A stretch of DNA of 64,000 bases. Source: Xanthostigma xanthostigma (lineage: Eukaryota > Arthropoda > Insecta > Raphidioptera > Raphidiidae). Position 1 is the first letter of the stretch, and each line of letters opens with the position of its first letter. Shown here piece after piece: positions 1,905 to 58,445 of the stretch. Where the stretch lies: the NCBI GenBank assembly GCA_963575645.1, contig OY754467.1:51803108-51867107 (forward strand), given 5' to 3'. Both the position numbers and the translations under genes were made by a program. The notes beneath the pieces are model-generated. The model was given only the letters and a program-made list of their open reading frames with translations, was not told where the DNA came from and did not search any database.

Positions 1905-1932
1905 CTGAGGAAGGTCTAATAAAGACCGAAAC
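1905..1932 (+). ncRNA. Hammerhead-like motif, PLE family 1 (copy 1)
   Basis: Reads CTGAGGA, A, GGTCT, loop AATAA, AGACC, GAAAC. The core boxes match the hammerhead consensus CUGANGA and GAAA and the stem II equivalent is a perfect 5 bp. One extra unpaired A stands between CUGANGA and the stem, which classical hammerheads lack, so cleavage is uncertain. Hammerhead motifs are known in PLE pseudo-LTRs. Confidence 0.6.
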
Positions 1933-2013
1933 GTTGCAGAAATAATAAAGTGATTATTATTTACCATCTTATCTAGTCCACATTCCTGATATTATTAATA
2001 TATATTTATAATT

Positions 2014-4530
2014 ATGGATGATAATAACAACAACATGTATATACCGAGGGGTTTTTTCCAAGAGATGAAAAATGCATATGGAGATGAATTAGTAAGATTT
2101 ATGAAGGAGTGGTCGAATACCCGGATTAAGTTGGCATCTATTATTAACAGAAGAATTTTCTTGTTAAGATGTAGAACTTACAAGGTGGTTCCAAAGCACA
2201 TTACTAATAATATGAAATGTGTTTTCTCATTAATCATGGATGACCATCCTTTCAAAAGAATGTCAGACAACTTATTTACAAGGTTTCAAAATTCGATATT
2301 AAATATGGAAATAAAAGTGACAGTGTGGAAATTAGAAAAACTGAGTAAATGGACCATGGAAATGGAGGAGAGGGTAAAAAGTGTAGTCTCGGAGCAAGTA
2401 TTTCGAAAGTTCGTACATATGAACAACATAAGGTATTATAACATCTTTAAGAAGATCAAGGACAATAATATGAAGAAGTTTGACACATTAATTAATCAGA
2501 AAGTTAATCGGTTAACGTTATCAAACGATAGAAAGCACATTTACAATTACACAGATGTGAGATTACCATCGGAAGTGGAAATGATATTGAACTTGGAACC
2601 GAAGTTTGGTATTGAAATTAAAGATAAGTTTAAGGTAATTCCTACGATCATCAAGGATTTAGAGTTTGGAATAGAAGCGGTGAAACTGGATAATTGTAGT
2701 ATTGTGGAAAAAGATATTATTAAGAATAATATTAGATCTAGAACTATTAATGTAATTTCGAATTTCTATAATAAAGGTGATAATCTGAGTCAAAAGGTTT
2801 TCATCGATAACTTACATATTACTAGGAAGTTCCTTAAGGAAAGACCGGAAATAATAGTTGCACGAGCTGACAAGGGGAACACAACGGTGGTCATGTTGAA
2901 AGAAGAATATGATAGAGAGATGCAAAAAATGATTGATGACAGCTCGACGTATAAGTTACTGAAAAAAGACCCGACAAGTAAATGGCAAAAGGATGCTAAT
3001 AGTCTAGTGGATAGGTTGGTAGCAGATGGAATCGTGGAAGAACATCAAGAAAAGCAGCTAAAGGCGAATAACACCGTGGCGCCTAGGATATATGGATTGA
3101 GAAAAACACATAAACAAAATTGTAACTTGCGTCCGGTAGTCAGTTGTGTTAATTCCCCGAGCTACAATTTAGCAAGATTACTACATGAAATACTTTCTCC
3201 AGTAATAGAAACTTTCCGATATAATGTAAAAAATTCTTTTGACTTCGTGGAATTTAGTAAAACAGTTACCCTACCAGAAGATTATGTATTAATTTCATTA
3301 GACGTGGTGTCGCTGTTCACAAATGTAAAACGAGATTTGGTACTGAGAGTAATAGAAGAAACCTGGGATAATTTTGAACATCTGATGAAGATTCCAAAAG
3401 AAGTTTTAATAGAACTTATCATATTCTGTTATGACTCAAGTTATTTTGTGTACCAAGGGAAGTTTTACGCGCAGGTTGAAGGCAGCAGCATGGGCAATCC
3501 AGCGAGTCCAGTCATAGCTAATTTAGTTATGAATTACGTCATTAGTCAAATTCTCTCAGTGTTACCGTTTGATGTTCATTTCTTGAAATTATATGTGGAT
3601 GACACTATTGCGGCGATACCAGCAGGCGAAGTAGATAATATATTAGATTCATTTAATAGTTTTGATAACAACATTCAGTTTACTATGGAGAAGGAGAAAG
3701 AAAATAGTTTGTCCTTCTTGGACGTTCTAGTGAAAAGATCAGATAGCAAATTAGTTACAGATTGGTACGTAAAACCAATAAGTTCGGGTAGATTATTGAA
3801 TTGGAAATCTAACCACCCGAGATCGCAAAAAATTGGTATGATTAAAGGCCTGCTAAATAGAATGGCTAGGCTGAGTAGTAGTGAATTCCATGAAGCTAAT
3901 TTTAAGAAGATCAGAAATATGTTGCTGAACAATAATTATGATTTATCTTTTGTTAATAATATTATAAATAGATTTAAAGGGAACTGGAAGGAGAATATAA
4001 TTATTGTAGATGTCAATAGAACTAATAATATAAAATATTGCAGGTTTCCGTATATAGCAGAATTATCACATAGAGTAGATAGGTGTTTCATAGGAACTAA
4101 TGTAAGATTAGCATTTTATAACATCTTAAGAGTAAATTCTGTGTATTCCAGGTTAAAAGATCCAGTTAATAAACAGCAGCAATCAGGATTAGTTTATAAA
4201 ATACCTTGTAGTTGTGGACTGTGTTATATAGGGCAAACTAAGCAGTATTTAGAAAATAGAGTTAAACAACATATTTATGATTGTAAGAATATTAACATAA
4301 TGAAAGAGAATAAGACAGCGTTAGCATCTCACTACTTTGAACAACATCATAATTTTATGTTTGACAATGTGACAATTTTAGATAAAGAAAAAAATTGGTG
4401 GAAACGTAATGTTAGTGAGATGATCTACATAAAAATTAATGACACTATGAATAAAAGGACGGACACCAATAATCTAAGTATTTTATATAATGACATTTTG
4501 TTAGACTATAAACGTAATAAGAGGAAATAA
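2014..4530 (+). CDS. Penelope-like reverse transcriptase with GIY-YIG endonuclease
   Basis: The 838-residue protein is complete. It should copy its own RNA and nick target DNA to prime insertion. Residues 1-280 are a basic N-terminal extension. The RT core follows: ARADKGNTT (~283-291), PRIYGLRKTHK (~357-367), LRPVVS (~372-377), LISLDVVSLFTNV with the first catalytic Asp (D430), GSSMGNPASPVIANL (~490-504) and YVDD (527-530). The C terminus is a GIY-YIG nuclease: GLVY at 725-728, a cysteine cluster (C732, C734, C737), YIG at 738-740 and Arg749 in the following helix. Order and length fit EN-containing Penelope elements. Met1 at 2014 is the first ATG after the end of the upstream copy. The frame shows no internal stop. 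It is alone in its unit; the expected promoter is in the upstream pseudo-LTR. The family is certain; present activity is inferred from intactness. Confidence 0.95.
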   Translation: MDDNNNNMYIPRGFFQEMKNAYGDELVRFMKEWSNTRIKLASIINRRIFLLRCRTYKVVPKHITNNMKCVFSLIMDDHPFKRMSDNLFTRFQNSILNMEIKVTVWKLEKLSKWTMEMEERVKSVVSEQVFRKFVHMNNIRYYNIFKKIKDNNMKKFDTLINQKVNRLTLSNDRKHIYNYTDVRLPSEVEMILNLEPKFGIEIKDKFKVIPTIIKDLEFGIEAVKLDNCSIVEKDIIKNNIRSRTINVISNFYNKGDNLSQKVFIDNLHITRKFLKERPEIIVARADKGNTTVVMLKEEYDREMQKMIDDSSTYKLLKKDPTSKWQKDANSLVDRLVADGIVEEHQEKQLKANNTVAPRIYGLRKTHKQNCNLRPVVSCVNSPSYNLARLLHEILSPVIETFRYNVKNSFDFVEFSKTVTLPEDYVLISLDVVSLFTNVKRDLVLRVIEETWDNFEHLMKIPKEVLIELIIFCYDSSYFVYQGKFYAQVEGSSMGNPASPVIANLVMNYVISQILSVLPFDVHFLKLYVDDTIAAIPAGEVDNILDSFNSFDNNIQFTMEKEKENSLSFLDVLVKRSDSKLVTDWYVKPISSGRLLNWKSNHPRSQKIGMIKGLLNRMARLSSSEFHEANFKKIRNMLLNNNYDLSFVNNIINRFKGNWKENIIIVDVNRTNNIKYCRFPYIAELSHRVDRCFIGTNVRLAFYNILRVNSVYSRLKDPVNKQQQSGLVYKIPCSCGLCYIGQTKQYLENRVKQHIYDCKNINIMKENKTALASHYFEQHHNFMFDNVTILDKEKNWWKRNVSEMIYIKINDTMNKRTDTNNLSILYNDILLDYKRNKRK

Positions 4531-4551
4531 TTTAAAAATTAGTTTATTAAG

Positions 4552-4744
4552 AATAACAAATAGAGAATGGTTGCTTCTTGCCGCAGCGGGTTTGTCGGTG
4601 GATGTGCATTTCGGGGGCTATGCTCTCATCTTCAGCAATACACTAAATTTTAGTGTATTGCTGAAGATGGGAGCGTGGCTCTCGGGGTGTGCATCCGCTG
4701 GTAGGTTTGTTGTGGTGAGAGGTAGCTATTCTCTATTTGTTATT
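4552..4744 (+). repeat. Large imperfect hairpin in PLE 3' UTR (copy 2)
   Basis: Same structure as 1297-1488, one base longer in the loop (CACTAAATTTTAGTG). The two copies differ only there, so the fold is preserved. Confidence 0.8.
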
Positions 4745-5160
4745 AGATTCAAACCACAGTGCTCCGAATATTTTTGTTATTAAGAATGATTAATTTGAAT
4801 ATGACAGTATCAATGTTTGATTAATGTTGGGCTAGATGGCGCTAACAACTTAGGACTAATGTTTGTATGTAATAAAGTAGAGTATAGAGAGCCGAAGGTT
4901 TGAAAGATGGGTTTACTGTTTACCATGAGACACAAATTCCACATGGTGTATTTTATGTATTTTATTTCTATATTTATTTCTGGTATTAATTTTAACTAAT
5001 TTATCAGTTTTGTTAATGTTGTGAAAAGATGTATGACTTGGACGACTGTGCATTATGGGATGGTGATTATTTTAATTCGTATTATGGTAAATATTGAATT
5101 GTAATAATTATTGTGCCAATGTAGTGGTTAAATGAGTACATATGTAATTTTTTCAGATGC

Positions 5161-5188
5161 CTGAGGAAGGTCTAATAAAGACCGAAAC
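5161..5188 (+). ncRNA. Hammerhead-like motif, PLE family 1 (copy 2)
   Basis: Identical to 1905-1932: CTGAGGA, A, GGTCT/AGACC stem, GAAAC. It lies about 70 bp before the end of the complete PLE unit, so every tandem unit carries one. Confidence 0.6.
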
Positions 5189-5261
5189 GTTGCAGAAATA
5201 ATAAAGTGATTATTATTTACCATCTTATCTAGTCCACATTCCTGATATTATTAATATATAA

Positions 5262-5400
5262 TATTAATTAATTTTATATTTTTAGATCAGTTCTGATGAA
5301 GATCCAAATCCGGATCGAAACGTTAATGTTTTAATTATATTTTTTTGTTAATATATTTGTTTGAAAAATTGGTCGATAATTTCATTTATCTAATAATATA
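5262..5400 (+). mobile_element. Tail of a second PLE family, with hammerhead-like motif
   Basis: A short 3' end abutting the family 1 PLE. It contains AGATCAGTT and then, at 5293-5321, CTGATGA, A, GATCC, loop, GGATC, GAAAC, followed by an AT-rich tail. The same sequence recurs reversed at 35455-35590 and as a diverged pair at 30504-30790. No coding part remains, so it is heavily 5'-truncated or a non-autonomous derivative. Confidence 0.6.
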
Positions 5401-6277
5401 ATCATTCTAATAATTGCTTTTTATTAATATTTTTTAACATTAAAAACATGCGGCTTCCAACTTACTACTTAGTACAAAATAGATAATATGGCCCGCAATA
5501 TCATATGAGTTTGACATGCCTGGTTTAAAGGTTCTCTATAGTTATATTCGACTCTACATTACTTATACAGAAAAAAACACATACATACATTACACAACAC
5601 AAACACATGCACATTTACACGTTAAACATGAAACACAGCCATGTTGAATCTTTCCCCTCGACTAGTGAGGGATCTTTTATAATTTTTTTTTTTGTATATA
5701 CTAGCAATTTCAATAAAATGAAATTTATAAAATAAAAGAAATAAAATTTATTAGCCAAAAATTCATTAGCTATACAGAATACCTATATTTAGAAAACTGA
5801 ATTTTCAAATTATAGAAAAAAATTGTTTTCAAAAATATCAAAATATTTCAATATAATTTTAAAAAACCTACAATTAAACTCTAAAGAGCAGATTAACCAA
5901 AAATTTTTAATTTAATTTTTATACGATTCGATATAAATCTGAACAAACCGTACCTATATTAAAGAATAAAATTGCTGCATGCATTGTTCGCTGACAGAAA
6001 ATCCTGCAATGGAAAATGGAACGGGAAATTGAAGTTTTTCCTTTGTGTTGCGTTAATAACTTGCGTTTAATCATTTTTGTCTACAGTGTTGTAATATTTC
6101 ATCGCAGTTTTCATATTTACTTCATCGATGGCACATCTGTCAACAAGACTTGAAAAATGAATCAACTTCTTTAAAGACGCTTTGCTTGAGTAAAGGGTTA
6201 TGTAATTATAATAACGGACTATGCAGACAACGAAACTGGTGAATTTTAAACTAAAATATGATGTTAAAATTTTTATT
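5401..6277. other. Unassigned AT-rich interval
   Basis: No gene, RNA or clear repeat border seen. Contains a short CA/ACA-rich stretch near 5580-5625 and oligo-A/T runs. Confidence 0.5.
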
Positions 6278-6510
6278 AAAGTAAAACTTCTTTCGGCACG
6301 CTTGACTTGGGAAGTAAGCTGGTAATTGCCTGACGAAAGCGTTTACGGAAGTGCATCATCGGACGAGGCGAACGGTGCGTGATCGTTCGAGGCGAACGGT
6401 AGTTGAGAGGGAGATATAAGTTAGTGAAAATAGTAAGAGAGAGAGAGTTACGTTTCATAAGTTTGGAGGGAGATATAAGTAAGTTAGCGAGTGCGGCAAA
6501 AAATTATTCA
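6278..6510 (+). repeat. GAAG-family repeat, truncated copy
   Basis: Starts at AAAGTAAAACTTCTT and shares the body CACGCTTGACTTGGG, GTAAGCTGGT, CGAGGCGAACGG and GAGAGGGAGATATAAG with 21949, 45995 and 59446. An internal duplication repeats the CGAGGCGAACGGT block. The right half is missing or diverged beyond ~6450. Confidence 0.65.
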
Positions 6511-6524
6511 AGGTCAAAGGTTAA

Positions 6525-6870
6525 AAGTATCAGGTTTGTGCACTTTTCTCGTAAACGGTAAATTTTGTCTAAAAATAGGTCAGACAAAAGTTGTAGATCA
6601 TGCAATTGTCTACAAGAATTGTTCTTATACTTTTTGTTCTACGAATCACCATTCTTTTGTAATTTCATGCATATTAATATTTAACGGTATTTTTGATAAA
6701 TTCGTTCAGTACGTACATAGACATTTTGGTCTATATCTCAAAAATAGTGATTCGTAGAAAAAAAATATAAGAACAGTTTTTGTAGACAATTGCATGATCT
6801 ATAACTTTTGTATGACCTATTTTTGGATAACATTTTCCGTTTACGAGAAAAGTGCAAAAAACCCGACTTG
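6525..6870. mobile_element. Foldback element (MITE-like)
   Basis: Inverted arms of ~130 bp, 6525-6660 and 6745-6870. Both carry GCACTTTTCTCGTAAACGG, a TTGTAGATCATGCAATTGTC block and ACGAATCAC. The short centre has no coding signal. The arm blocks resemble those of 12175-12790, so the two belong to one superfamily. Confidence 0.7.
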
Positions 6871-7051
6871 ACAAATATGTACAATAAACTAAAAATTAGA
6901 AACTTCATATAATGAATAATTTTAGTAACATTTGAAATATTATGTCATTTTTATAACTCAACAGATCTTAAATAATTCCGGCTCACAAACAGTTAAACAT
7001 AAAGCGACTGTTCTAATGAAAAAATCATCAAGTTCATTGACTTGAATATAG

Positions 7052-7629
7052 AGGCGCCACTGGGAAGTTTAATGCTAAGCATCGCTCCCTTTTGAATTTG
7101 CATTCTGAACCCTTTTCAGTACAAAAACAGTCAGTGGAAGTAAAAAAATCGATCAGTTTGTCTTGTTATATTTTGTGTTAGTTGAATAGCGAGACTTTAA
7201 GGTCTACCCTTAAAAAACATAACGCACATATTCGATTCCATTAAAAAATTATATCATTTGACTATAAATATCGACGTTTCCCATCATTTGGTGCAATTTT
7301 TTACGCCAATAAATTTCTGTTCAAACGATTAAGTCTGTAGAAATTAATTGAGATTTTTTAAGCTTATCCTTAGCTTCCGCCATTTTTTAATACTGTGGTA
7401 AAGGTTCATTTTCAACTCTCTAAGCTGTATTCGCTTGATAATCAGTGATTTTCACAACAAATTAATGAGTTTTCAATGATAAATTTACTCTCAAAAAACG
7501 AAATAGTCAAAATGTCACTATTTGAAATAGTGACTTCTGATTCACTTCCGGAATAGTGAATTCAAGTAAAATTCACTGTCAGAATAGTGATGCCGCTATT
7601 TTTATTCGTGTCGTTTGTGGCGCCTCCAT
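7052..7629. mobile_element. Possible TIR element with GAGGCGCCAC ends
   Basis: GAGGCGCCAC near 7053 and GTGGCGCCTC near 7620 form a perfect 10-bp inverted pair about 580 bp apart. Between them, 7500-7600 is full of CACTATT/AATAGTG motifs in both orientations, like the element at 8127-9290. No convincing target duplication. Confidence 0.3.
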
Positions 7630-7682
7630 ACAAATTACTATAGATACTTTTTATCATTCATGTAGAATGTAGATCGTTCTAT

Positions 7683-8014
7683 TAGACGGAGAGCTGGCTA
7701 CGGAGAAAATGGGTGACTCGGTGGAGAGCTGAAAATTTGCAGAATAATAGGAGATAGTATAAGTAAGTAGGGAAAAAATTTCCAGAAGGCTAGGCGGAAG
7801 ATAAAGAGCCGCCAGAAGGCGCTAATGTTGCGAAAAATCAGTGCACTTCTGGCAATTTCTATACTTATTCTGTAATTCAAAACTAGATTATATATTATAG
7901 TATATATTATATACTATAATATATAATCAAGTTTTGAATTACTATCTCCTATTATTCTGCAAATTTTCAGCTCTGCACCGAGTCACCCATTTTCTCCGTA
8001 GCCAGCTCTTAGCC
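7683..8014. mobile_element. Foldback element F, copy 1
   Basis: Arms begin near GAGCTGGCTACGGAG and end at CTCCGTAGCCAGCTC. The left arm is long (CTTCTGGCAATTTCTATAC, GCTAATGTTGCG); the right arm lacks that inner part, so the copy is asymmetrically deleted around an AT-rich centre (~7890-7925). The 60-codon minus-strand frame here recurs in copy 2 (39835-40546) and is an arm sequence rather than a gene. Confidence 0.8.
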
Positions 8015-8126
8015 CATATAGCAAGTTCCTAGTAAGCCGATAAACAAACAAGTATAATTTATCAGGTAAGTCAGTTAGATTATTTTAATTATATTTTCAT
8101 AGATCTGTATTTTGTATTCAATTTTT

Positions 8127-9290
8127 AATCGAGTTGTAAAAATATAAAAGTTAATTTGGATTTTCAAATTTTTTTTTTCATTCGTTATTTTCACTAGTAA
8201 TTATACTAGTGAAAATAACGAATGAAAAAAAAATTTTAAAAATCTATTTAATGGTCACTTATATACCTAATTAGTGAATTTTTATATTCACTAATGCATA
8301 TTGTGAGTAAGTCACTAATTCTACGTGGTACGATTATAGCATTGCCAAATAGTGAATATACACTTGTAATTTGTGAAAAATCACTGATTTATGTTTAAAG
8401 AGAACAAAGTTCGTCAGGAACGGGTAAAATTGTCTTGTTGGCATCTCTGTTAGTTAAGTATCTCTATGTGTGTGGTGTAAGTCTCGAGAGTACAGCTTTT
8501 ACACATTCTGTGGCTTGCCATACTTGGATACAGGATACAGGGAGCTTCGCCCCCCATACAAACACACGCTCACACAAACACACAATACAGTGGCCTGCGG
8601 GAAATTCAGCGCAATCAAGATAACTTCAATAGACACGTGTAACACACTCGAATGGTTAGTTCGGGATTGTTCGGTGTCCAGATTGATTGATAAACAAAAG
8701 ATTAATAACAAAAGATATCAGTTCTCTAGACAGCTAGATTCAACAGAAATTAATTAATGTTCGGTTTACATGTTCTTCTTAGCAAATGGATTCTAATTGA
8801 TTGATAAAGATGAATTTTTCTTTTATTTTCATTAACAAACAAGAGAAATAGTGCATGGTTTGATTTTTATACAAGGTTATAATAATACTAATGCAATTTT
8901 GTATGTGATTTCTATCTAAATTGAATCTGGTCGATAAACGCAGAAAAAAGTATTTTACTCTCTAAACATAAATCGGTGATTTTTCACTAATACAAGTGAA
9001 TATTCACTATTTGTCAATGCTAGAATCGTACTACTCACAATATGAATTAGTGAATATAAAAATTCACTAATTATATAAGTGAATATAAAAATTCACTAAT
9101 TATTATATAAGTAAATATAAAAATTCACTAATTATATAAGTGAATATAAAAATTCACTATTTTAATAAATGACCATTAAATGTCAAAAAAACAATTTTTT
9201 AATTACAGATTTTTTAAATCTTTATTCAGTCGTTACTTCCACTAGTACTTATAATTAACTTTTATATTTTTACTGATCAATTAAAAATAT
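8127..9290. mobile_element. ~1.16-kb inverted-repeat element
   Basis: The left arm (8127-8410) and right arm (~8950-9290) match in reverse complement: TAAAAATATAAAAGTTAATT, AATGGTCA, AGTGAATTTTTATATTCAC, GTACGATT.TAGCATTG, AGTGAATAT, CACTTGTA and AAAAATCAC. The left arm also carries a private palindrome at ~8180-8230 (CATTCGTTATTTTCACTAGT and its complement). The centre (8411-8950) has two overlapping open frames of 62 and 95 codons with no recognised domain. Confidence 0.7.
9050..9162 (+). repeat. 29-bp tandem repeat, four units
   Basis: Unit GTGAATATAAAAATTCACTA plus an AATTATATAA linker starts at 9050, 9079, 9111 and 9140 (spacings 29, 32, 29). Each unit is itself a small palindrome. The opposite arm of the same element has only one unit, near 8275, so the array expanded after the arms formed. 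Confidence 0.85.
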
Positions 9291-10323: not shown

Positions 10324-11349
10324 GTGAGTAGCAATAAATGAAATAAATTATTGGAAATCATTAATTTAAGTGCGAACTATTTGATGACATTATTATAATA
10401 AGCGTGAAAATTCCTGTGGTTTGCACTTGAATAAATTCTGAACCAAACTTGTATGTTGATGTGTTTTAGACCACATAGGAGAGTAGAAATTAAAATTTAT
10501 AACACTTTGGTATATTCTATATAGTTAATAGAAATTTAGTGCTTTGATGTGAATTTCTGTTTAAGCCAATTATGTGTCTCCAGAAGTTTGTATATGAACA
10601 CATAAATAACATGTACAATGTATTATAATTACTATGTATTTTATAATTAGAGTCTTTATAGAAAATCATTGCATTTTCAAAACTATTTCGACTTTTAATA
10701 AATCCCCAACAATCTCTGTTAGCATAAAGCAATGAAATATAAAAAAAACAATATTTTTTTCTGATTGTTACAAATTAGAAGGTCTCACAAAAACAGTTTT
10801 CGTTCAATGGCACCAAAAAGTATTTTGAACTATATCTGCAATATACTTATGTATTTTTATGAAAAATATATTATGTTACATAATGTCAATTGACTTCACC
10901 AATATATATATAGTATAACATATCTGACACAAACAGACAATTATTTCAACAAATTTTAAGGAATATTTCCTCGAAACTACACCGGTTTTTTTTTTTTTAT
11001 TTTTACGTTATCTACAAGAGTCGAACTTTCAAATGATCAGTTATTTAAAACTCCGTCCGGAGTCAATAAACCGTGGTTAATTTTAATAAATATCTGCATT
11101 TCCGATGAGCAACCTAGGTCAGATCTTAAATAATTTTAACTCACAAGCAGTTAAACATAAAGGGAGAAACAGCCAAGAAGGACACTTTGCCCGCTACCAC
11201 ATCGCCTTTGATAATGTCTATCGCAGTAAGTAATGTAGATGAAACGTCAGTACGAATGTACCAAAACAATTATTGAATGTACGAGATATTCATAACATAT
11301 TGTAGCGGATCTTCCTGTATATAGAGTACCAGCATAATTTACATATCTT
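10324..11349. other. Unassigned AT-rich interval
   Basis: No gene recognised. CAGATCTTAAATAATT...CAGTTAAACATAAAG at 11118-11163 repeats 6961-7003, so a small repeat of unknown type is present at both sites. Confidence 0.5.
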
Positions 11350-12790: not shown

Positions 12791-13254
12791 CCACTAATTT
12801 TTCCGAAGTTTCACTTATTTTTTGTCTTTATTCCCTGGACAAAACATGAAAGGTTGGCGAAAATATCTCTGCGCTTCTTCTTGCCAGCCGCCTTTGAAAA
12901 TATTATCAACAATTTTATGTCTTGGGAAAAATAATAAAATAAATAAAACAATAATAATAATTTTGATATTTTACATATAGAACAGAAAGGTTTAAAATTA
13001 AATCTATTGGAAGCTTTGGAAATTCACAAACGCAAAAATTCATCCAATCTATTAAATAATTAAATGATCAAAAAGACATCTCCACATCACCTTTACTAAA
13101 CCTAAAGTTTAATTTTTAATGAATATAGTGTTCTTCCTTTGTTCTTTTTCTATGAGTTGGGATTTCCCACCCCACCATCCTCCACCTTAGTTGTATAAAA
13201 TCTACCTAATTTAGACCTATATAGATTATTTTTGTAAACTGTAATACTGTATAT
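12791..13254. other. Possible decayed PLE body upstream of a tail motif
   Basis: AT-rich, no coding remnant recognised. It precedes the tail motif at 13255 and may be its eroded 3' UTR; that is inference only. Confidence 0.3.
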
Positions 13255-13281
13255 CTGATGAAGCTGCTGTGACAGCGAAAC
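13255..13281 (+). ncRNA. Hammerhead-like motif, PLE family 3
   Basis: CTGATGA, A, GCTG, loop CTGTGA, CAGC, GAAAC, followed by a T/A-rich tail. Same layout as the PLE motifs at 1905 and 5293 but with a different stem sequence that still pairs. Probably the tail of another, otherwise unrecognised PLE. Confidence 0.5.
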
Positions 13282-13770
13282 ATGTCATATTTTTTTATAA
13301 TTAAAGTGAAAATTTTTTTTAACTTGTTTTATTTATTTTATTTTATAATGGATTTTCATCAAGTAAAGGCAGAAACTATTAGATCTTGGGAAAAAAGGAT
13401 CATTTTACTACTGCTATATAGATCTGAAAAGCATCTATTTTATAAAGAGTCGTGCAAAAAAAATTATTGTATGTTATTGGTTTATAGTTGAATGAAATTC
13501 TCCGAAGCACAAGTTAATCTCGAGTAAGCCAAATCATTTTCTATCTTGAAACCACTAGTTGACTTTAATCGATTTGCAAACTTTAAAGCCATAAATTACA
13601 CATACAGAGTTTGTACGTCAGTAACATTGATATATTCCAAAAGTTTGGAACAAGGTTAGCGTGCTAACAAATGGAAGCGGAAGTTTAGTGTGCATACTAA
13701 AAATATCGTGCCGCGATACATTGAAACATTTAAGACTAACTTAGACCTAAGAACTTCAGTCAAAGATCTT

Positions 13771-30503: not shown

Positions 30504-30790
30504 AACTGGTGGTATCAATGATATGTTGATTTTTTCAATAAATAAAATAAAATATGTAAAAATTAATACATTAACTTTTCGGTCCGGATTTGGATCTTCT
30601 TCAGAACTGATCTAAAAAATATAAAAATTAATTGATAATTAGTTTCTAATTTGTTTTTGAAAAAATTAAAAACTTGAAGCGAATTTTTTCAAAAATCAAT
30701 ATGAAACTAATTAATTATTAATTAATTTTTATATTTTTTAGATCAGTTCTGAAGAAGGTCCAAATCCGGACGGTAACAAAAAAATATAGT
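30504..30790. mobile_element. Head-to-head pair of PLE family 2 tails
   Basis: Minus-strand copy on the left with tail motif at 30576-30604 (CTGAAGA, A, GATCC...GGACC, GAAAA). Plus-strand copy on the right at 30749-30776 (CTGAAGA, A, GGTCC...GGAC, decayed GAAA). Both start near GAAACTAATTA and are separated by ~60 bp, so tails point outward. Same family as 5262 and 35455; older, since stems carry mismatches. Confidence 0.65.
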
Positions 30791-33794: not shown

Positions 33795-34635
33795 CTTCCC
33801 GCTTTAAAAAAAAAAAGATCTCGACGTTTTGAGGTCCTAGGAAGCTATTGAAACTATTTTGGCGATGATGTCCGTAGGGCTGTATGTATGTGTGTGTATG
33901 TGTGTATGTATGTATGTAAACCTTTTATATCTTTTGAACGGAGTGTCCGACTGAAACGCGGTTTGCGGCATCTGACGTGATCTTGGTGAACTTAGACTTC
34001 CTGAAAATTTGAAACGATTCGGCCCAAAAAATTTTGAGAAATCTTAAAAAACCCAGTTTCAAAAATTTTTAAAAATTTGTTTTTGTAAAAAATTTTCTAA
34101 ACTACTAAACCGATTAATTCCAAAAACTAATCAGCTTTTCTCCTTAACAAACTGCGTCGATTTCCGCAAACCGCATCAAAATCGGTTCATTTGTTCACGA
34201 GATACCGTGAACGAAAAAATCGTAAAAAAGTGTTTTTTTAAAATGACTCTTAAAATTGTTATCAGATTGATTTTTCTGTAATAAATTACTTTCTTAGGCT
34301 AAAAAAACTGCGTCGATCGCCGCAAACCATATCAAAATTGGTTCATTTGTTCGTGAGATAACGTGAACGAAAAATTAGGAAAAAAGTAATTTTTTAAAAT
34401 TACTCGTAAAATTCTTATCAAATCGATTTTTTTGTAATAATTTACTTTCTTAGGTTAAAAAAACTGCGTCGATTGCAGCAAACCGCATCAAAATCGGCTC
34501 ATTTGTTCATGAGATATCGTGAACGAAAATTTCGTAACAAAGTGTTTTTTTTTTTGAGATCGAAGAGCTAAAAAATAAACTTCTTGCTATATTTTATATA
34601 TTTTTGAGCGTTTTGAACTCGAAAATAGCGGGAAG
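33795..34635. mobile_element. 841-bp element with CTTCCCGCT ends
   Basis: CTTCCCGCT and AGCGGGAAG are perfect 9-bp inverted ends, flanked by TTAA (left) and TTAC (right). Inside: a GTATGTATGTGTGTGTATG microsatellite (~33880-33920) and the 156-bp tandem repeat. No coding. Could be TTAA-targeting; the flank mismatch leaves this open. Confidence 0.6.
34151..34555 (+). repeat. 156-bp tandem repeat, 2.6 units
   Basis: Units begin ACTGCGTCGAT at 34151, 34307 and 34463. Conserved blocks: CAAACCGCATCAAAATCGG, TTCATTTGTTC.TGAGATA, CGTGAACGAAAA and TAATTTACTTTCTTAGG. Confidence 0.85.
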
Positions 34636-34757: not shown

Positions 34758-34967
34758 ATGAGTATTTGGAAAGAATTCCGTGGCATAAGGATCGAAAATG
34801 AAGCAATACTGAGACTTTTTTAAACTTGCATTTAATACTAACGTCTCGATACTCTGAAGATGATACAAAACGTATCGAAACGTTAGTATTAAATGCAAGT
34901 TTAAAACAGTCTCAGTATTGCTTCATTTTCGATCCTTATGTCACGGAATTCTTTCCAAATACTCATC
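34758..34967. mobile_element. Head-to-head PLE family 4 tails
   Basis: Left arm 34758-34840 (minus) and right arm 34880-34967 (plus) share CGTTAGTATTAAATGCAAGT, CAGTATTGCTTCATTTTCGA and GGAATTCTTTCCAAATACTC. The tail motif at 34854-34881 (CTGAAGA, T, GATAC, AAAAC, GTATC, GAAAC) belongs to the right copy; the left copy begins just after its GAAA. Tails point outward and the junction is only a few bases. Confidence 0.7.
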
Positions 34968-35454: not shown

Positions 35455-35590
35455 CAATAAATAAAATTATCAACCAATTTTTCAGACAAATATATTAACA
35501 GAAAAATATAAATAATACAATAACGTTTCGATCCGGATTTGGATCTTCTTCAGACTGATCTAAAAATATAAAAAGTAATTAATAATTAGT
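35455..35590 (-). mobile_element. PLE family 2 tail
   Basis: Minus-strand copy of the 5262-5400 tail: CTGAAGA, A, GATCC, loop AAATCC, GGATC, GAAAC at 35525-35553, then TTAATATATTTGTCTGAAAA. The stem pairs perfectly. Confidence 0.65.
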
Positions 35591-35651: not shown

Positions 35652-35818
35652 GTTTGTGGACAATAATTATATTTATAATTGTACGACGTTTCGTTTCATA
35701 ATTATTGTTTTAAATAATTTTCAATTTGTACTTGAAAAAGTCTAAATTTATAGACGAAACGTCGTACAATTATAAATATAACTATTGTCCACAAACCTGC
35801 GAATTTTTTCTTATTAAC
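35652..35818. mobile_element. Head-to-head PLE family 5 tails
   Basis: Two near-identical ~50-bp arms (GAAACGTCGTACAATTATAA, ATTGTCCACAAACCTGCGAA) point outward from a ~60-bp centre. The right copy has a decayed core at 35732-35760 (TTGAAAA, A, GTCTA, AATTTA, TAGAC, GAAAC) with a perfect stem. The left copy starts at GAAAC, without the stem. Confidence 0.65.
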
Positions 35819-45591: not shown

Positions 45592-45624
45592 GTAAGTCGA
45601 CAAAAAAACGGTGGCAGTCTGCAA

Positions 45625-50706: not shown

Positions 50707-51188
50707 AAAGGACCCTGTACAAACCTTATGGGATTTGGTTCTTGATTAAATTGACCGAAAATGGTTTTATTATATAGTTTAAAGGTCACTAAGAAATAGT
50801 GTCTATGGGTGCATAGCTATAGCGAGATTTTAGATATAGGGATATCCATTGACTTCACAAACATGTTCTATGTTCGACTTTTGTGCTTTTTTTTAGAAAT
50901 AGAAAAATAGTTGAAAACTAGGTAATGTTGGAATATTTTACCCTGTATGGAATAATAATGTCATATTCGAATTCAGCGCACTCAAAAACATATTTCTAGG
51001 GCTTAAGATTTTTTAAGATTGTGAATTCAATGGATATACCTATATCTAAAATCTTGCTCAACATATGTAGCTAAAAATGTATACACTCATAGGCACCTTT
51101 TCTTAGTGACCTTTAAACTATAAAATAAAATCATTTTTGATCAATTTAACCGAGATCCAAATTCCATAAGGTTTGTGCCGGGTCCTTT
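50707..51188. mobile_element. ~480-bp foldback element
   Basis: Arms 50707-50860 and 51025-51188 share AAAGGACCC, CAAACCTTATGG, AGTTTAAAGGTCACTAAGAA and AGATTTTAGATATAGG.ATAT. Centre ~165 bp with no coding. Confidence 0.75.
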
Positions 51189-51676
51189 ATGAAATAAATC
51201 ATAACTTTTCCAATCTTACATAGGCAAGTTCTATGTTTGATCACTAGCCAGAGCTCAACGGACCGGCTATGAAACTTTTTTCGCGATGAAAATCTTAACA
51301 GATGATAGCATGACATTTGCTTTATGTTCTGTTCTAATGAAACATCGTGTCTCTAACGTAAAGAACATATTATAAAGAAATTCTCTCCAAATATTGCAAC
51401 TGTATTTTTGCAGTACCCCTTATAAAATAGCTTCTTTATATAGATGTATTCAGGCTTCTAAAGTTTAACCAAAGCCAAGCTCGTGTCCAGCGGTCTTTAG
51501 TTAGGTAGCTTTGTTTATTTTTTAAATGACGTGATAATATGTAGATCATGCAAACGAATAGCAAATATCATATTTAATCGTAATGATTATTATTAGCCAT
51601 TGTAATAATAATACAGTAAATAAAATCTTTCTCAAATCTCATGATTTATTAGTTTTAAATATCATAATATTAAATA
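51189..51676. other. Unassigned interval
   Basis: AAACGAATAGCAAATATCAT at ~51552 recurs reversed at ~52740, outside the inverted tail pair. No gene. Confidence 0.45.
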
Positions 51677-51800
51677 CTAGCTGTTAGTCGCGTCACTGCA
51701 CGGGTTAACAGAAATGTTATTTTCTTTATTATATAGTGTATCAATACTTTTGAAGTTGGAAGGATCTCGTCGCCTAATTGGCTGGAATTTTTTTTTTATT
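51677..51800 (+). mobile_element. Non-LTR tail, third family (left of inverted pair)
   Basis: CTAGCTGTTAGTCGCGTCAC, TTTTGAAGTTGGAAGGATCT and CCTAATTGGCTGGAATTTTT are repeated in reverse at 52601-52735. No coding. Confidence 0.6.
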
Positions 51801-51894
51801 ATAGAGAAAAACAAAATTAAAATACAAAAAAAATAACAAAAATAAAAAATTGTGCTTCAATCTGGAATTTTTGTACTATGTATAGATTAGTGAC

Positions 51895-52193
51895 TAGTGT
51901 TCGACTGAAGCTTCGGCTTCGGCCACCTTCGGCTTGGGCCAAAATGGACCGAAGTTTTGGCCGCAGCCGAAGGTTTCTAACAAGCGCCGAAATTGAACGA
52001 ACTGTTACGAATGAGCGAGAGCGCGATGGACGTAGCGACTTCAAGAGATGATTAAAATTACCTTTTTATATTATATAGTCAATGTAAACCTTAAATTTAA
52101 AAGTCAATTATATTATTAATTGTAGCTTGTAGCAGTTGTAGCCAATTTAAACTGAATATCTTAAGCCAGAAAACGACCTTCGGTCGGACACTA
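51895..52193. mobile_element. 299-bp hAT-like MITE
   Basis: TAGTGTTCGACTGAAG and CTTCGGTCGGACACTA ends, then CTTCGG/CCGAAG-rich sequence (51915-51995). Flanks TTAGTGAC and TTAGATAC agree at 6 of 8 positions, possibly a decayed 8-bp target duplication. Ends fit the hAT rule. Confidence 0.6.
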
Positions 52194-52600
52194 TTAGATA
52201 CAGATATCTACCTAAAATCATCTACAGTAACACAGTTAAAAAAGAAACTTAAAATTTTGCAAAGGAGAGCAGATTGTCATTTTCTAATTTTAGTTGGATT
52301 TTAAAATTCGTAGTCGTTCTAAAATTAGAACAGTTTCTCTGAATGGGAAAATGGTTCGTTATAACTGTAAAGAATAGCATATAAGGAATAAAATTATGAG
52401 AAAATACTTGTACCAAACATCCTCACGCATTAAAAGATTAAACTAATTAAATGATACCATCTGACTACATAAATAACGTTGGCTCCCTCCTTCACTGGCA
52501 CATACTCTGATAAATATATTGTACTCACTCACTTGTACGTTTCTAAATACATTGATTTTACCTTGTTCTTGATCAATATTAAAAACTTGTTAATTTAGCT
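52194..52600. other. Unassigned interval
   Basis: No gene or repeat recognised. Confidence 0.4.
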
Positions 52601-52735
52601 ACCAAAAATTCCAGCCAATTGGGCAACGAGACCATTCCAACTTCAAAAATATTGACACTTGACATAATATAAAATAGAAAATAAAATTTCTGTTAAGGCA
52701 TGCGGCGAGGCGGGTAACGGCTAGTATGGAATATT
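52601..52735 (-). mobile_element. Non-LTR tail, third family (right of inverted pair)
   Basis: Reverse of 51677-51800: AATTCCAGCCAATTGGGC, CCAACTTCAAAAATATT and AACGGCTAGTATG. The two copies differ by scattered substitutions, so this is an old inverted pair or two separate insertions. Confidence 0.6.
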
Positions 52736-54119
52736 ATGATATTTGCTATTCGTTTCCATGATTATCAATACAGGCTGATTTTTAAGTTGATTCTTCTGTT
52801 TTAACAGCGTGTAAAAATCAAACAGACGAACAAATATTTTATCAAAACTCAAAAATAAGAAAGAAACAGTCGTTCAAAGTTTGATTAGTTTTTTAAATTA
52901 ATTTAATTAAATAATTTCAAAGCCAGGTTCACACGCGAATCGGAAATGTATCCCAAAATAATTCGCGGAAGGTCTCTATGGCTACTACAAGCATGTACTG
53001 AAGCATGGCATCATATTGTGTCCAACAAAACGGGAACAACTTCGAACAATACTTGATAATGACATAACATATTTCCATAGTGACATAATATAACGGCAGG
53101 ACGGGCTCAAAATTTGATAAAATTTAATAAAACATTGAAAGCCCGTTTCTCTCATATTTTTGTTTTGATAAAAAATTTAGTTTGTGTATTTGATTTCTCT
53201 ACGCTGTTAAAAAAAAGAATCAACCTAAAAATCATCCTGTATAATATGTTATCACGTTCTGTAAAAAATAATTCAAAAAGAATGCTTATCAACGAATAAA
53301 CTATCAGATTTGAAAAACAAAAAAACTTTTTTTTTATTTTCAACAAAAATCCCAAACTATAAAGTTTAGAAATATACTAAACTTAGTAAAGATTAAATAA
53401 TTATTGGTAAATTGCAAAAAGTCATAATTTTGTCAATAATACTTGACTTCGCACGGCTACTGCACCGAAAATATTAAGTTTAGAGAAAAAATATATAAGA
53501 TATATTTTGTGGAAAAATTTAATTCTATTTTATCTTCATCTAACAAAATTTGCCTATGAAGCACCCGAAGGGAGAAATTTCATAGACATTGCCAATATGG
53601 CGGCCTCAACAGTTTTTTTCATTGCAGTCACGGTATCGAACCTTACAAATTTCTCAAGTTAAAAAAATTCCGCACTTATTCCATTTAAACCCCCTATTTT
53701 CCACTGATCTACATATAACTACGATTTTTACTAATTATATAATCATTGATTGCAATGAGCAAGCACGCAATGCTAGTGAACCCAAGAGTGATGACAAGCG
53801 TGCAGGCAAAACGGTGGGACAATTTCTTCTTTATTTATCTTTACATAAAAACGAGAACGCCAGCACAAATTAAGATATGTGTACTTTAATTCGCTGACAA
53901 AGAAAAAAAAATTTGAAACGTGTGTTTATACATATGGTACTTTTTAACATATATATTTAGTAGAAGAGGTAAGTATACATAATATAACATTAAATTATTG
54001 TGGGTTATTTCCCTTTCAGAAATAAATGTAGCTAAATATCATTATTATTAATTACAGCAAGAATAATTTGTTATGTTTATTTGAAATGACATATCAACTA
54101 CTGTTGTACTAAAACTATA
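52736..54119. other. Unassigned interval
   Basis: A 94-codon plus frame (53589-53873) has no domain. ACTTCGCACGGCTACTGCAC near 53445 resembles a non-LTR tail start without its body. Nothing else recognised. Confidence 0.4.
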
Positions 54120-54425
54120 GGGGCGTTGCGTGCTCCCTGTTGGGACGACTATGTTTTCTGTGGAATAATCGCGCAACATCAACAATGGAAAACAGGTAGC
54201 CAAAAAAAACGAACTTTTTGGTATTGCCTGGAGAAGCCAATGTAGGTAAAGAGAGGTTCTCGGCCTTTCTAGAAAATTCGGCAGGCGGGGATCGAAGCTA
54301 TAAAATGCAAGCGGGTCGCTGGCATGTGGTCAGTTGTTCGTGAAGCGTTCATGTGTTGATACAGTGCCAGTGCGTTGTGACATAAATCATTAAGTGCAGT
54401 TATATAAATCTGGTATTTGGAATTT
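54120..54425 (+). promoter_or_regulatory. Promoter-leader module B (heat-shock-like)
   Basis: TTC TA GAA AA TTC at 54267-54279 is a textbook three-unit heat-shock element. TATAAAA follows at 54299-54305, 19 nt later, and a TCAGT initiator at 54330-54334, 31 nt after the TATA start. Module A (13771) matches across GTTGGGACGA, CAACAATGGAAA.CAGGTA, ATTGCCTGGAG and CGAAGCTATAAAATGC. The leader GTGACATAAATC, ATATAAATCTGGT also matches. No ORF follows. Function is inferred from motif spacing and conservation. Confidence 0.55.
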
Positions 54426-55313
54426 TATAGTATCGCAACAAACATTTACATTTTAATTAGTCATAATATTCTTTACTTCTAATGGGTTATAATAAAGAAA
54501 TATTCAAACACCTTCTTCATTGTTAAAAACTTTCATATTTCATCTTAATTTAATTTACTTACGCAGGCGCAATTAAAAAGCTTGAAAAGGAGGCACATTA
54601 ATAATTTGAAAACTTTATATATTTCTGTTATAATGTTATTTTTTTACGAATAACAGATTTAAAAAAAAAACGAAACAAGTAGATTCCAATTACGCAAACC
54701 TCTGTTGACGTAAATTCAAATACAAAACTTATTTGTCGTCTCAACAGGCAAGTAGAGACAGAAGAAGAAGTGAGTTAGTTGGTAGATATTCCGTTGTTAG
54801 CGCGACAGACGCTTGGCCTGTCACGGTACGTTATGCAGAATACAACAACAAAACAATATTAGACGGAAATTCAATTCCCGACACAAATCTACTTTGTAAT
54901 GGGATCCAAATCGAAAACACTGCGTGAGTTTCATTTTCCCGCTCCTTTCTTCAGCTGTTCCGGACTCCGGTTCCGGTTGTATATTATAACACATATCCAA
55001 TTTAAAGTTTTCTGTCCTTCTGTGATATCACCAGTTTTGGACTTGTATTATATTGTAAGATCGTATAAATCAGGTCAACGCGTCAAAAACAAGAAACTAT
55101 AGTACTTTTTATCAGACCTGGAGACAGATAACTTTGAACTGTGTACAGTAATTTTGTCTAATATCTTATTATAGCTAATACAGATTAATAACTCGCCTTA
55201 TTAGTGTATTTGCCACAAGGCACTTACACTATTGGCGTCGGTCGGATGGTGGGACCTAGGGATCGGACCATAGCCTCCTAAACACTTTGGCACTATTTTT
55301 GGAAATGTTCATA
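54426..55313. other. Unassigned interval
   Basis: Frames of 64 and 67 codons near 54733-55102 overlap and lack domains. CTCCTAAACACTTTGGCACT (~55275) is a weak relative of the inverted repeat at 9622. Confidence 0.4.
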
Positions 55314-55881
55314 CAGTATGTAAACACGTAAGGTGCACATAGGGAAATTAACATTGGGAAAAAAATGACTGGATCAGAGTGAGCCTTGAAATCTTGTTTT
55401 TTTTTTAATTTGACAGATAATATTCTTTTGCAAAATGAATGTGTATACTACCGAAGAAAATATTCAAATGATTACAACATAATCGGACATTTTTTATTAA
55501 TGGGACATTAAATTCCCAAAAATACTTAAATATGGTGAGAAATCAAATATCTCCGCTTATTCGGGTTGAACCTAAAGACATTGGGTCACTGATTTACCAA
55601 CGCGCATACGTCATACCTGTCAGACAATTTTTGAATGAAATGTTTCCAAACAGATGGAGTTGTTTTTTTGTTTTATTTTTGTACAAAAAAATTAAAATAA
55701 TGATTTATAAGAGCTTTTTATTAAAAGCCAAGTAAAATAAAAATAAAATAAAATAGAAATCCTCAAGATTACCACGATAATTCAATAGAAATAACAATTA
55801 ATGCAGTCATGGCTAACTCTGATCCAAGTATTTTTTCCCAATGTTAATTTCCCTATGTGCACCTTACGCGTTTACATACTG
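55314..55881. mobile_element. Tc1/mariner-type element, internally deleted
   Basis: ~70-bp terminal repeats: CAGTATGTAAACACGTAAGG, TGCACATAGGGAAATTAACA and GATCAGAG blocks, mirrored at the right. TA flanks both ends (55312-55313, 55882-55883). CAGT ends and TA target fit Tc1/mariner/IS630. 568 bp. Confidence 0.8.
55604..55660 (+). pseudogene. Transposase remnant inside the TA-flanked element
   Basis: AYVIPVRQFLNEMFPNRWS matches the style of the VRQFLNxxFPxRWIGRxGP stretch that precedes the last catalytic block in many insect Tc1/mariner-like transposases. The next expected PPRSPDLxPLDFFLW block is absent; low-complexity sequence follows. It is a ~19-codon fossil in a 67-codon frame, between the element's terminal repeats. 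Identified by eye from the family pattern. Confidence 0.5.
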
Positions 55882-57025
55882 TACATATTTGTTAGCACGA
55901 TTATACTCTCGACAGACTAAATCGATTTAAACGAAATTTGTTGGAATCCACCACCGCACGAAGCCTATTTAAAATGGGCCTAATCGGGCTATTTTAAGGG
56001 TGGGTTTTAGGGGTTGAAAAATTTTTTAGGCCCAAAAATAAATAAAAAATTCTCAGAATCGTTTCAAATTTGAAATTTAACCCTTAAGTAATTATTAAAA
56101 TGTGCTGCTAAAATTTAAAAAAAAATCGGCCCGACAGGACCGGACTTACAAATTTTATGAAAATACAAGTTTACACTAATATATAGATTTACATACTGAA
56201 GTGTGATAATAATTTGGTATAGATGTTGAATTGATATGTAGTACTATTGAAATTAAGTAAAAAAATGTTGTTTTAAGGGGTAATTTTTTTTATTTTTATA
56301 TTCCAAAAATCAAATAGTAATGTCATTTCGTTCATAGGGCGGTGGAGGAGCACTTGAAATGTAAAATTTGTTAGAGAAATTCGACATCCTAAATCTTTTA
56401 ATTCCGTAACACTGAAGGGAAATTGGTTCATAAAAATGTATTTATTGTTATCTCTGTCCACAATAAAATTCAATAATTCTTTTGAACTGAACAAACCGAA
56501 AGAAGTAGCTCATATATAAAGTTTAGTAGCTTTTCTAACAAAGATATTTATTTGCAACAAAGTGCTTCACCTGCTAGACACGTACTGTTTGCTTTTTCTC
56601 TGCTATTTATTGCAATCTAAATCCGCATCTGTGAAGCGGAAACCGATTAAAAAAAGAATATAATGTACGCAATATATCTATACGTAAAACAAAGGTTTTG
56701 TTGAGGGAAAAAAGATAGAAAGTTTGTGTCCAGCAAGCCGTAAAAATATACTGGTTTTTCTTTGAAAAATATTGTTATGACCTGCTTGCTGTGATACATA
56801 CTAAAAAGGACTTCAACAGGCGCGCATAGCGCAATTGTCTGTCTGTCTGTTTATCTGGGTATCAGTCGATCTGTTAGTGCGATTGCATTACAAACGACTG
56901 CAATAGATTAGTTTCCTGAAAACGAATTTTCTGACGCTATAAATAATTGAATTGTACTTTTTAAATATATACAACGTAAACTGTATTTAATAAATGATAC
57001 ATTACACTAATTTTTAGAAGAGCGA
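55882..57025. other. Unassigned interval
   Basis: GCCTATTTAAAATGGGCC (~55971) is a small palindrome; GTCTGTCTGTCTGTTTATCTG at ~56839 recalls non-LTR UTRs. No gene or delimited element. Confidence 0.4.
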
Positions 57026-57562
57026 GGCCTCTTGTTAACGACAACGGAAAACAGTCCGATTTTTATGACAGGCAACGGGCCGACGCGCAGTGTTCAATAG
57101 GTTAGTGTGGGTGTTTGTTAACGCGACGGGCATGTAACTGTTGCAACAAAACTCAACGGATACCCACACCTCACCCTTCGGCGCGCCTGCGGTCGGTCCG
57201 ATGCAGTGAACTACGTTATTTCATATAAGTTTGTTGACGACGACAGATGTGCGCGCACGTTTTTACCTATACCTAGCTACCTACCTCGTGCTGCTCATTG
57301 TGAATAGGGAGTTTAAAATTGATATTGATATGGATTTATTAATTAGCCTTGTTCATAATAGACCAGTGTTGGGACAAGACTTTAGAAAATTAAAAAAATA
57401 AACAAGCAAGACATAACGTACTTGCACTTTTTCGCCTTTCAAGTATAGAACTGATATCGATAACAACGGACGCGCTCACGTATATTAGCGGATCGTGGAC
57501 AAAGATAACCGTTTTGCGTCGGCCCGTTACCCGTTGACTAAAACGCTCGTTAACAAGAGCCC
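57026..57562. mobile_element. Possible TIR element, CTCTTGTTAACGA ends
   Basis: GGCCTCTTGTTAACGA on the left and TCGTTAACAAGAGCCC on the right, with a second inverted pair CAACGGGCCGACGC (57073) / GCGTCGGCCCGTT (57517) just inside. GC-richer than the surroundings. 537 bp. No target duplication seen and the 64-codon minus frame has no domain. Confidence 0.5.
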
Positions 57563-58140
57563 TAACTCTACCATTTCTCAGCATGTTTGACTAACAAAGC
57601 GCAGTCAGAGTTTAGGATTACCCGTATAGCGTAAGGGTCGTCTATAACACAATCGATTTCACCCAGTTGGTTTTGCATTCCACGTTTTCTCTCGCGGCAC
57701 GCGCATCGAGACGTTGAGAGTTATGAAACAACTGCTTTGTGAATATAAATTAGGTCGGTGAGACTTTAAAAGGAGCTATCTTCGTGTTGTTGTGAGTTCA
57801 ATGACGAGAAAACTATAAAAAACGTACAACTTGTTCCAACCAAGCTGCGATTATCTCGATTATCTCCGAAACTAGACAAGATACAGAGATGCGCCTGTGC
57901 TCATTGGATTCAGCGTGTCAAAATCTACCGGGTAACATTAATTTCGACCTGTTCTGGGAGACTTCGATTTTGAAAATTTTTACAGGGGGGGCCGACGATT
58001 ATTTTTTCATTTTAAAAATGCATACCTACGTACACTGTATAATGATAGCTACATATAGGTGCGCCTCAGCAAATATGTTTGCTAAAATTTGATAGAGCAG
58101 CATCCATCTAGTTTCTACAAATCGATGTTAATACACCTAA
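57563..58140. other. Unassigned interval
   Basis: No gene or repeat recognised. Confidence 0.4.
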
Positions 58141-58445
58141 CTCGAACTATTTATTTCTCATGTAGATTGTTGAATAAAACAATTCCAAAAATTAGATTTT
58201 TTTTATAAAAATTGAGCACTTTCGGGATTATCTCCCATCATCAGAATCTAAAATTTTTATTTAACTTCTATAATATAAAGGTAAATCATAAAATATAATT
58301 TTATAGTTTATACTTACAATTTGTAAGAATAAATTATAAAATTATATTTTATATTTTAGATTCTGATGATGGGAGATAATCCTGAAAGCGCTCAATTTTT
58401 ATAAAAAGAAAAAATCTAATTTTTGGAATTGTTTTATTCATTCAT
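58141..58445. mobile_element. Head-to-head pair of PLE family 6 tails
   Basis: Minus-strand motif at 58219-58244 (CTGATGA, T, GGGA, GATAA, TCCC, GAAAG). Plus-strand motif at 58363-58389, identical except one stem mismatch. Both tails (GCTCAATTTTTATAAAA, AAATCTAATTTTTGGAATTG) point outward; ~115 bp of mostly AT sequence, itself partly palindromic, separates the two motifs. Confidence 0.65.

Follow-up and report, generated by a model that had tools for sequence, protein, structure and literature searches.

The 64,000-nucleotide (nt) stretch of the Xanthostigma xanthostigma genome analyzed here (GenBank assembly GCA_963575645.1, contig OY754467.1, positions 51,803,108 to 51,867,107; hereafter the window) carries eleven sites that share one small RNA fold. 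We consider it likely that these are minimal type I hammerhead ribozymes, belonging to a Penelope-like element (PLE) or to a short non-coding relative and situated immediately before the point where reverse transcription begins; they would act as dimers and cut after position H17, and the cut RNA would yield short stubs of complementary DNA (cDNA). An earlier note, made from the letters alone, had described the sites as the boxes CTGANGA and GAAA kept around a stem that differs among six families, with one extra A or T after the first box, and had proposed either a hammerhead variant or a related structure with another role. All eleven sites exist and are listed below. Bases are given in hammerhead position numbering, and all cut positions in the window are predicted from the hammerhead register.

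1902–1938, plus strand: minimal hammerhead, GGTCT family; cut before 1936; extra A at 1912; stem I TGC/GCA; stem III ACGT; H17 is T; 52.5 bits (this site helped build the model)
5158–5194, plus strand: minimal hammerhead, GGTCT family, in the second copy of the tandem unit; cut before 5192
5290–5327, plus strand: minimal hammerhead, GATCC family; cut before 5325; stem I GTT/AAT; in the training set of the model
13251–13290, plus strand: minimal hammerhead, GCTG family; cut before 13287; stem I ATAT/ATAT; stem III ACATGT; H17 is C; 22.0 bits, E value 0.0049
30565–30613, minus strand: decayed hammerhead, GATCC family; left arm of a head-to-head pair with 30740–30782
30740–30782, plus strand: decayed hammerhead without GAAA, GATCC family; right arm of the pair with 30565–30613; E value 0.034
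34848–34890, plus strand: minimal hammerhead, GATAC family; cut before 34885; extra T; follows an inverted 5'-truncated arm; stem I GATACT/AGTATT (6 bp); in the training set
35518–35557, minus strand: minimal hammerhead, GATCC family; first base past the cut at plus-strand position 35521; stem I CAGT/ATTG
35726–35769, plus strand: hammerhead, GTCTA family, with U3-A8 for C3-G8 in the core; cut before 35764; stem I TTGTAC/GTACAA (6 bp); stem II 5 bp; stem III ACGT; H17 is C; in the training set
58209–58249, minus strand: minimal hammerhead, GGGA family; first base past the cut at plus-strand position 58213; stem I AGATT/AATTT; stem III AGTGCT (one G-U pair); H17 is C; E value 1.1
58358–58398, plus strand: minimal hammerhead, GGGA family, head-to-head partner of 58209–58249; cut before 58394; stem III AGCGCT; E value 1.8

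Eight of the eleven sites keep CTGANGA and GAAA together with the single extra base and a stem of 4 bp or longer: 1905, 5161, 5293, 13255, 34854, 35553 (minus), 58244 (minus) and 58363 (the earlier note quoted minus-strand sites by their low end). The other three deviate. At 35732, TTGAAAA replaces CTGANGA and the rest is kept; the decayed sites show a stem mismatch (30604, minus) and a missing GAAA (30749).

The 7-mer CTGANGA alone is about twofold enriched in the window (33 occurrences versus 15.5 expected). Once the stem and GAAA are included, eight sites have one extra base and none has zero or two, while simulated 64-kb sequences (n = 100) contain on average 0.05 sites with one extra base, 0.10 with none and 0.08 with two. 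Across the genome (623 Mb, 28 contigs), the pattern CTGANGAN{10,30}GAAACGT has 21,110 matches, and the same pattern reversed has 213. Flanks were taken for the first 100 matches listed, of which 77 have a stem of at least 3 bp and exactly one extra base, 2 have no extra base, 2 have two extra bases and 19 lack the stem; stem II reaches at least 4 bp in 76 (here called structured).

Hammerhead architecture and covariation

With its flanks, the motif reads in the order stem I, C3 U4 G5 A6 N7 G8 A9, an extra base, stem II, G12 A13 A14 A15.1, a palindrome ending in U16.1, H17, the cut, and stem I again. H17 is T in 59, C in 15, A in 2 and G in none of the 76 structured matches, all of which thus fit the hammerhead cleavage triplet NUH, and it is G in 1 of the 24 unstructured ones. 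The first stem II pair of the structured matches is G-C in 67 and G-T in 9. Stem II was a selection criterion, and stem I played no part in choosing the sequences. Of 16 family representatives, 14 form a stem I of 3 bp or longer; when partners are shuffled (2,000 shuffles), the number that do so averages 2.98 and never exceeds 10. The exceptions are GATCC-C (1 bp) and GTTTTA (2 bp). Among single matches, stem I reaches 3 bp in 50 of the 76 structured and 13 of the 24 unstructured ones.

Standard pairs fill 93.3% of the pair cells in 15 family representatives (85% for stem I), versus 57.8% with shuffled and 29–58% with slid partners, and the covariation score is 0.960 versus 0.230 (shuffled) and at most 0.230 (slid). 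Positions 3 and 8 are able to pair in all 15 representatives. In the window, the CUGANGA core with C3-G8 is fully present at 8 of 11 sites, or 10 of 11 when the two decayed sites that keep the box are included. Recognizable flank similarity exists in only 4 of 136 family pairs; the shared fold is therefore not due to one recent family, and we rejected the idea that all of them form a single recent family. The compensatory change proposed in the earlier note is thus real.

Stem III is a self-complementary word of 4 or 6 nt: ACGT, ACATGT (13255), AGCGCT (58363) or AGTGCT (58244). ACGT is found in most families, although the search pattern demanded it. The property that is kept appears to be self-complementarity, as expected if two copies pair. 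Because stem III is a palindrome only, two copies would have to pair to form an active double hammerhead. Two viroid hammerheads fused through stem III are known (PMC6466107; citations here and below refer to passages of the papers named). The earlier note had recorded only stem II and overlooked both stem I, which spans the cut, and the palindromic stem III. Since both are present, of its two proposals the hammerhead stands and no other structure or role is needed.

A covariance model built from 15 families recovered seven sites in the window at E < 1e-6, including four that had been used to train it. Weaker scores were obtained at 13255 (E = 0.0049), 30749 (E = 0.034) and the pair at 58 kb (E = 1.1 and 1.8); a probable reason for the poor scores of this pair is that stem III of the model is ACGT. 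Further matches lie at 11199 (E = 1.2) and 37443 (E = 6.9). An additional match at 53885 was rejected, as its sequence lacks CTGANGA. In viral contigs, at least 120 stretches match a near-identical pattern; a 4-bp stem was present in 1 of the 80 loci examined, and we therefore rejected these as real relatives, since they look like chance.

The extra base

One extra A or T between CTGANGA and the stem is present in all six window families, as the earlier note had reported: A in GGTCT, GATCC, GCTG and GTCTA, and T in GATAC and GGGA. An unpaired base follows A9 in 17 of 17 families examined. Its identity in the genome sample is A in 49, T in 26 and G in 1 of the 76 structured matches, or A in 50, T in 26 and G in 1 of the 77 with a stem of at least 3 bp.

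The claim that such a base is foreign to the classical core has to be qualified by a precedent, for the plus-strand hammerhead of CChMVd has one unpaired A after A9 (PMC3705267). Alignments of known hammerheads also tolerate one or two inserted nucleotides beside CUGAnGA (PMC10085705). Given this precedent and these alignments, the extra base is thus a variant within hammerheads. From the published coordinates of the anole element discussed below, we infer that its hammerhead carries the extra base as well (PMC11167929).

The host element

The first base of the window already lies within a PLE. The two GGTCT-family hammerheads, 1905 and 5161, flank a reverse transcriptase (RT) open reading frame (ORF) of 838 amino acids (aa) within a tandem unit that comprises the following features.

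2014–4530, plus strand: 838-aa ORF of a Penelope-like element; reverse transcriptase (Pfam RVT_1, 3e-9); C terminus GIY-YIG-like by eye only
1394–2004, plus strand: pseudo-long terminal repeat (pseudo-LTR) region, copy 1, with hammerhead and tail; 99.84% identical to 4650–5260 (an ungapped measure; the repeat may extend upstream)
4650–5260, plus strand: pseudo-LTR region, copy 2; the predicted cut is 69 nt upstream of its 3' end
16–363: perfect palindrome of 2 × 174 nt, centered at 189/190; head-to-head junction of two copies of the element

The predicted cut before 1936 lies 78 nt upstream of the ORF start. The left arm of the palindrome extends past the window and carries its own hammerhead. 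The predicted structure of the C-terminal 126 aa of the ORF has a pLDDT of 38.6. No relative of the ORF was found in viral contigs. Families other than GGTCT were seen as short non-coding copies; no ORF search was made for them. Where neighboring motifs lie less than 1.5 kb apart, 20 of 24 are arranged head to head. This arrangement is known for PLEs, and palindromes at the inverted junction have been ascribed to self-priming (PMC3846280).

Copies ending at the predicted cut

Many copies of the GAAAA family are joined head to head with their ends at the predicted cut. Taking the first base past the cut as +1, 31 of 40 symmetric junctions in this family are one 24-nt product in which both arms are able to start at +1 (an exact match in 28, a single substitution in 3). 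The cut is followed by GGCC, and an identical GGCC 35 nt upstream, across stem I, serves as a built-in control; it is used in 1 of 47 junctions (Fisher 2e-14). A longer palindrome with AACGTT just before the cut is used in 1 of the 40 symmetric junctions.

We fetched 20 of the 31 loci with this junction. Direct repeats of 9–15 bp, all different, stand at or within a few nucleotides of the ends in 15 of the 20, and 19 of the 20 have one short arm (54–70 nt) and one long arm (94–109 nt); two tail lengths and target-site duplications are thus observed among these loci. The loci fall into several tail subfamilies, and both arms share the best-matching subfamily in 19 of 20 (for L169, on the basis of 15 nt in one of the arms). 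The fetched loci look like independent insertions, with differing tail variants and direct repeats, and we rejected the possibility that the 31 palindromes are one duplicated element.

Picking copies by tail alone gave 42 GAAAA copies (3 partial partner rows of 45 were left out), including L153 (twice) and L166, which are both among the 31 palindromes. Judged by eye, seven of the 42 end at the cut, and about 12 others are scattered over the surrounding 46 nt. The script placed 6 copies at -1 and 2 at +1, and one (L192) was dropped because its GGCC comes from the other arm. For four copies with point changes (L179, L196, L200 and L204), the start by script is +2 or +3, but by eye these copies are longer; L206 has an internal deletion. 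A further set of 30 GAAAA loci was excluded from the analysis of 5' ends, as its query began 2 nt before the cut. At one locus, L199 (G000:C3:6228200-6228354), two tail arms are separated by 14 consecutive A that resemble poly(A) or untemplated filler; the right arm starts exactly at +1.

Arm ends of the GATCC-C family fall most often at +1 (22 of 76; the next classes hold 12, 9 and 8). At three of its 38 loci the two arms both begin at +1 and are separated by filler of 9, 10 and 17 nt, and therefore no palindrome joined these arms. In the GATAC family, for which loci were found using a query that begins at +1, an arm lies at or within 1 nt of +1 in 4 of 36 fetched loci (L120, L130, L140 and L147), and the +1 end of L130 abuts a flank that does not match the element. 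In L140 (C1:66.698 Mb) and L147 (C1:13.292 Mb), several short palindromic copies of the tail follow one another in a chain, with joints at the predicted cut or no more than 1 nt from it. The +1 peak is thus strong in GAAAA and moderate in GATCC-C, with no clear peak in GATAC. This pile-up of cDNA ends at the predicted cut looks new.

Mechanism and alternative explanations

From these observations we infer catalysis, dimer formation and a cut that precedes cDNA synthesis. Two copies, from a tandem transcript or from two RNAs, would pair through the palindromic stem III and form an active double hammerhead. In the window's element, cutting after H17 would leave an RNA that begins 78 nt upstream of the ORF. 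The PLE protein would nick both target strands, and cDNA would start, in the GAAAA family, about 54–70 and 94–109 nt downstream of the cut. On uncut RNA, cDNA would pass through the hammerhead into the pseudo-LTR, and on cut RNA it would run off at the cut, where two short cDNAs would be joined head to head. Because the RT start is downstream of the cut, cDNA on cut RNA would reach only about 55–110 nt, and long copies would need uncut RNA. This agrees with the anole element in vitro, for which uncut RNA is the main substrate (PMC11167929), and it would explain the tolerance of a slow, dimer-dependent ribozyme.

The pile-up suggests that the ribozyme may really cut in the living organism. We see about even chances for a more general proposal, namely that PLE hammerheads cut RNA in vivo that is later reverse transcribed, leaving both arms at +1 as a signature, with the stem I ends aiding the join. 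The ribozyme would then set the balance between long copies and dead-end stubs, and the reduced stem III and the extra base may slow cutting to a rate that lets the element survive. If this is true, copies ending at the cut are a countable fossil record of cleavage in any genome with these elements.

Several results weigh against this account. The Rfam hammerhead models had no match, either in the window at the gathering score or in seven stretches up to an E value of 10, so these models miss the sites that the 15-family model recovers. A GIY-YIG endonuclease was not found by Pfam, NCBIfam or PDB sequence search of the ORF. Among the five covariation measures, the numbers of doubly changed pairs and of pair types lie barely above the shuffles, since 19 and 47 of the 500 shuffles reach them. 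In the GAAAA family, 57 of 80 arm ends are scored by the script at -1 and not at +1, owing to a chance match of the base that precedes GGCC, and the same 24-mer would also result if two arms ending at +3 were joined bluntly; the symmetric class alone therefore fixes the end only to about one base. Of 139 asymmetric junctions, 100 were listed and only 8 of these end at +1, as do 3 of 35 minus copies. Three of the seven tail-picked copies that end at the cut lack a palindrome, and two of these, L172 and L205, have a junction in common and may have arisen from the palindrome by secondary deletion. The GATCC-C family shows its +1 peak with a stem I of only 1 bp. GATAC arm ends at +1 number 8 of 52, against 7 at -1, 6 at -2 and 9 at +3, and the one symmetric junction in GGTCT, the family of the window's element, is not at +1. 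Finally, catalytic mutants of the anole hammerhead insert unchanged in vitro, with no reads at the presumed cut (PMC11167929).

It is unlikely, in our judgment, that the PLE hammerhead is real and the pile-up merely reflects microhomology joining, in which evenly spread ends would be joined where self-complementary words such as GGCC, GACGTC and GATCCGGATC occur. The asymmetric junctions, with ends scattered over the hammerhead and mostly small overlaps (1–8 nt in 75 of the 100 listed and 22 of 35), fit such joining, as does repeated use of the palindromes GACGTC, TTTCGAAA and GATCCGGATC in GATCC-C. GGCC at the GAAAA cut is itself palindromic, and microhomology joining therefore contributes. 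It does not account, however, for the rare use of the upstream GGCC (1 of 47) and of the longer palindrome just before the cut (1 of 40), for the three GATCC-C loci with both arms at +1 across filler, or for the +1 end of L130 against a flank unlike the element.

We hold it rather improbable that an RNA 5' end at +1 arises from a transcription start, or from an RT stop at the folded hammerhead, in place of a ribozyme cut. Structured RNA can stop reverse transcriptase, but a structural stop would be expected before stem I (+5) and not between H17 and +1. The first bases past the cut vary (GGCC, ATCT, AGTA), whereas their register to the hammerhead is constant, which argues against both a start and a stop. 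In favor of a transcription start, PLE pseudo-LTRs carry promoter-like motifs (PMC3846280). We give slightly less credence still to the idea that the hammerheads are inherited passengers with unused catalysis, whose stems survive because the copies are young. The two decayed sites among the eleven in the window, the 19 of 100 sampled matches without a stem and the normal insertion of the catalytic mutants in vitro (PMC11167929) would fit passengers, but stems that covary across families with mostly dissimilar flanks, the absence of G at H17 in 76 matches and the clustering of ends at the cut in two families would not.

Comparison with known systems

Minimal type I PLE hammerheads were reportedly first studied by Cervera and de la Pena (2014) and by Lunse, Weinberg and Breaker (2017). 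The earlier note had mentioned that hammerhead motifs are known in PLEs, and the window sites match that known kind in their hammerhead core, missing stem III, pseudo-LTR location, thousands of dispersed copies and possible dimers (PMC7761336, PMC6155905). They may differ by the unpaired base after A9, which is present in 17 of 17 families. CChMVd shares that base, as an unpaired A (PMC3705267), but its hammerhead is that of a viroid and has no retroelement link. Natural core insertions and substitutions, some of them still active, are described by Perreault et al. 2011 (PMC3088659), in passages that mention neither a U3-A8 pair nor an insertion after A9.

A further comparison is with the Poseidon element of Anolis carolinensis (PAc), in which the hammerhead stands at the junction of pseudo-LTR and ORF and both target strands are extended (PMC11167929). 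The PAc protein cuts and extends both strands and assists its hammerhead. Two internal RT start sites with a 30–40 bp tail between them fit the two arm lengths found here. No PAc reads ended at the presumed cut, whereas genomic copies here do end at the predicted cut. The R2 retrotransposon, with an HDV-like ribozyme, likewise combines self-cleavage with a retroelement 5' junction (PMC3774820). R2 has another ribozyme class, and the PLE RT start is close downstream of the cut, so cut PLE RNA should yield short stubs only.

A family with a changed core

The GTCTA family, represented at 35732, has 2,099 genome matches and none in the control. TTGAAAA was present in 100 of 100 listed copies of the 2,099, although the pattern permitted CTGANGA as well. 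C3 and G8 are both altered, and a U3-A8 pair replaces C3-G8; flanks were examined for the window copy. The swap may be one event inherited by all copies. We know of no natural example of a U3-A8 hammerhead, and this family of about 2,100 copies looks new. It would be a natural compensatory change within the catalytic core. In the anole hammerhead, the double change C3G/G8C partly restores activity (PMC11167929).

Other features of the window

A long near-perfect hairpin occupies 4600–4698 in the pseudo-LTR region of the autonomous element, with its copy-1 equivalent at about 1344–1442, and has sub-cut-off matches to Rfam microRNA families. Weak microRNA matches from Rfam were rejected, as they are located on inverted repeats. 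A pyrimidine-rich tract ending in AG, resembling a 3' splice site, stands 3–7 nt before C3 in the GGTCT, GATCC, GGTTT and GGGA families (1892–1900, 5148–5156, 5276–5285 and 58353–58359, plus sampled loci), and the hammerhead may stand at the very start of an exon. Just upstream of the GATAC-family site, a tandem array with a 156-nt unit (2.6 copies) covers 34149–34551.

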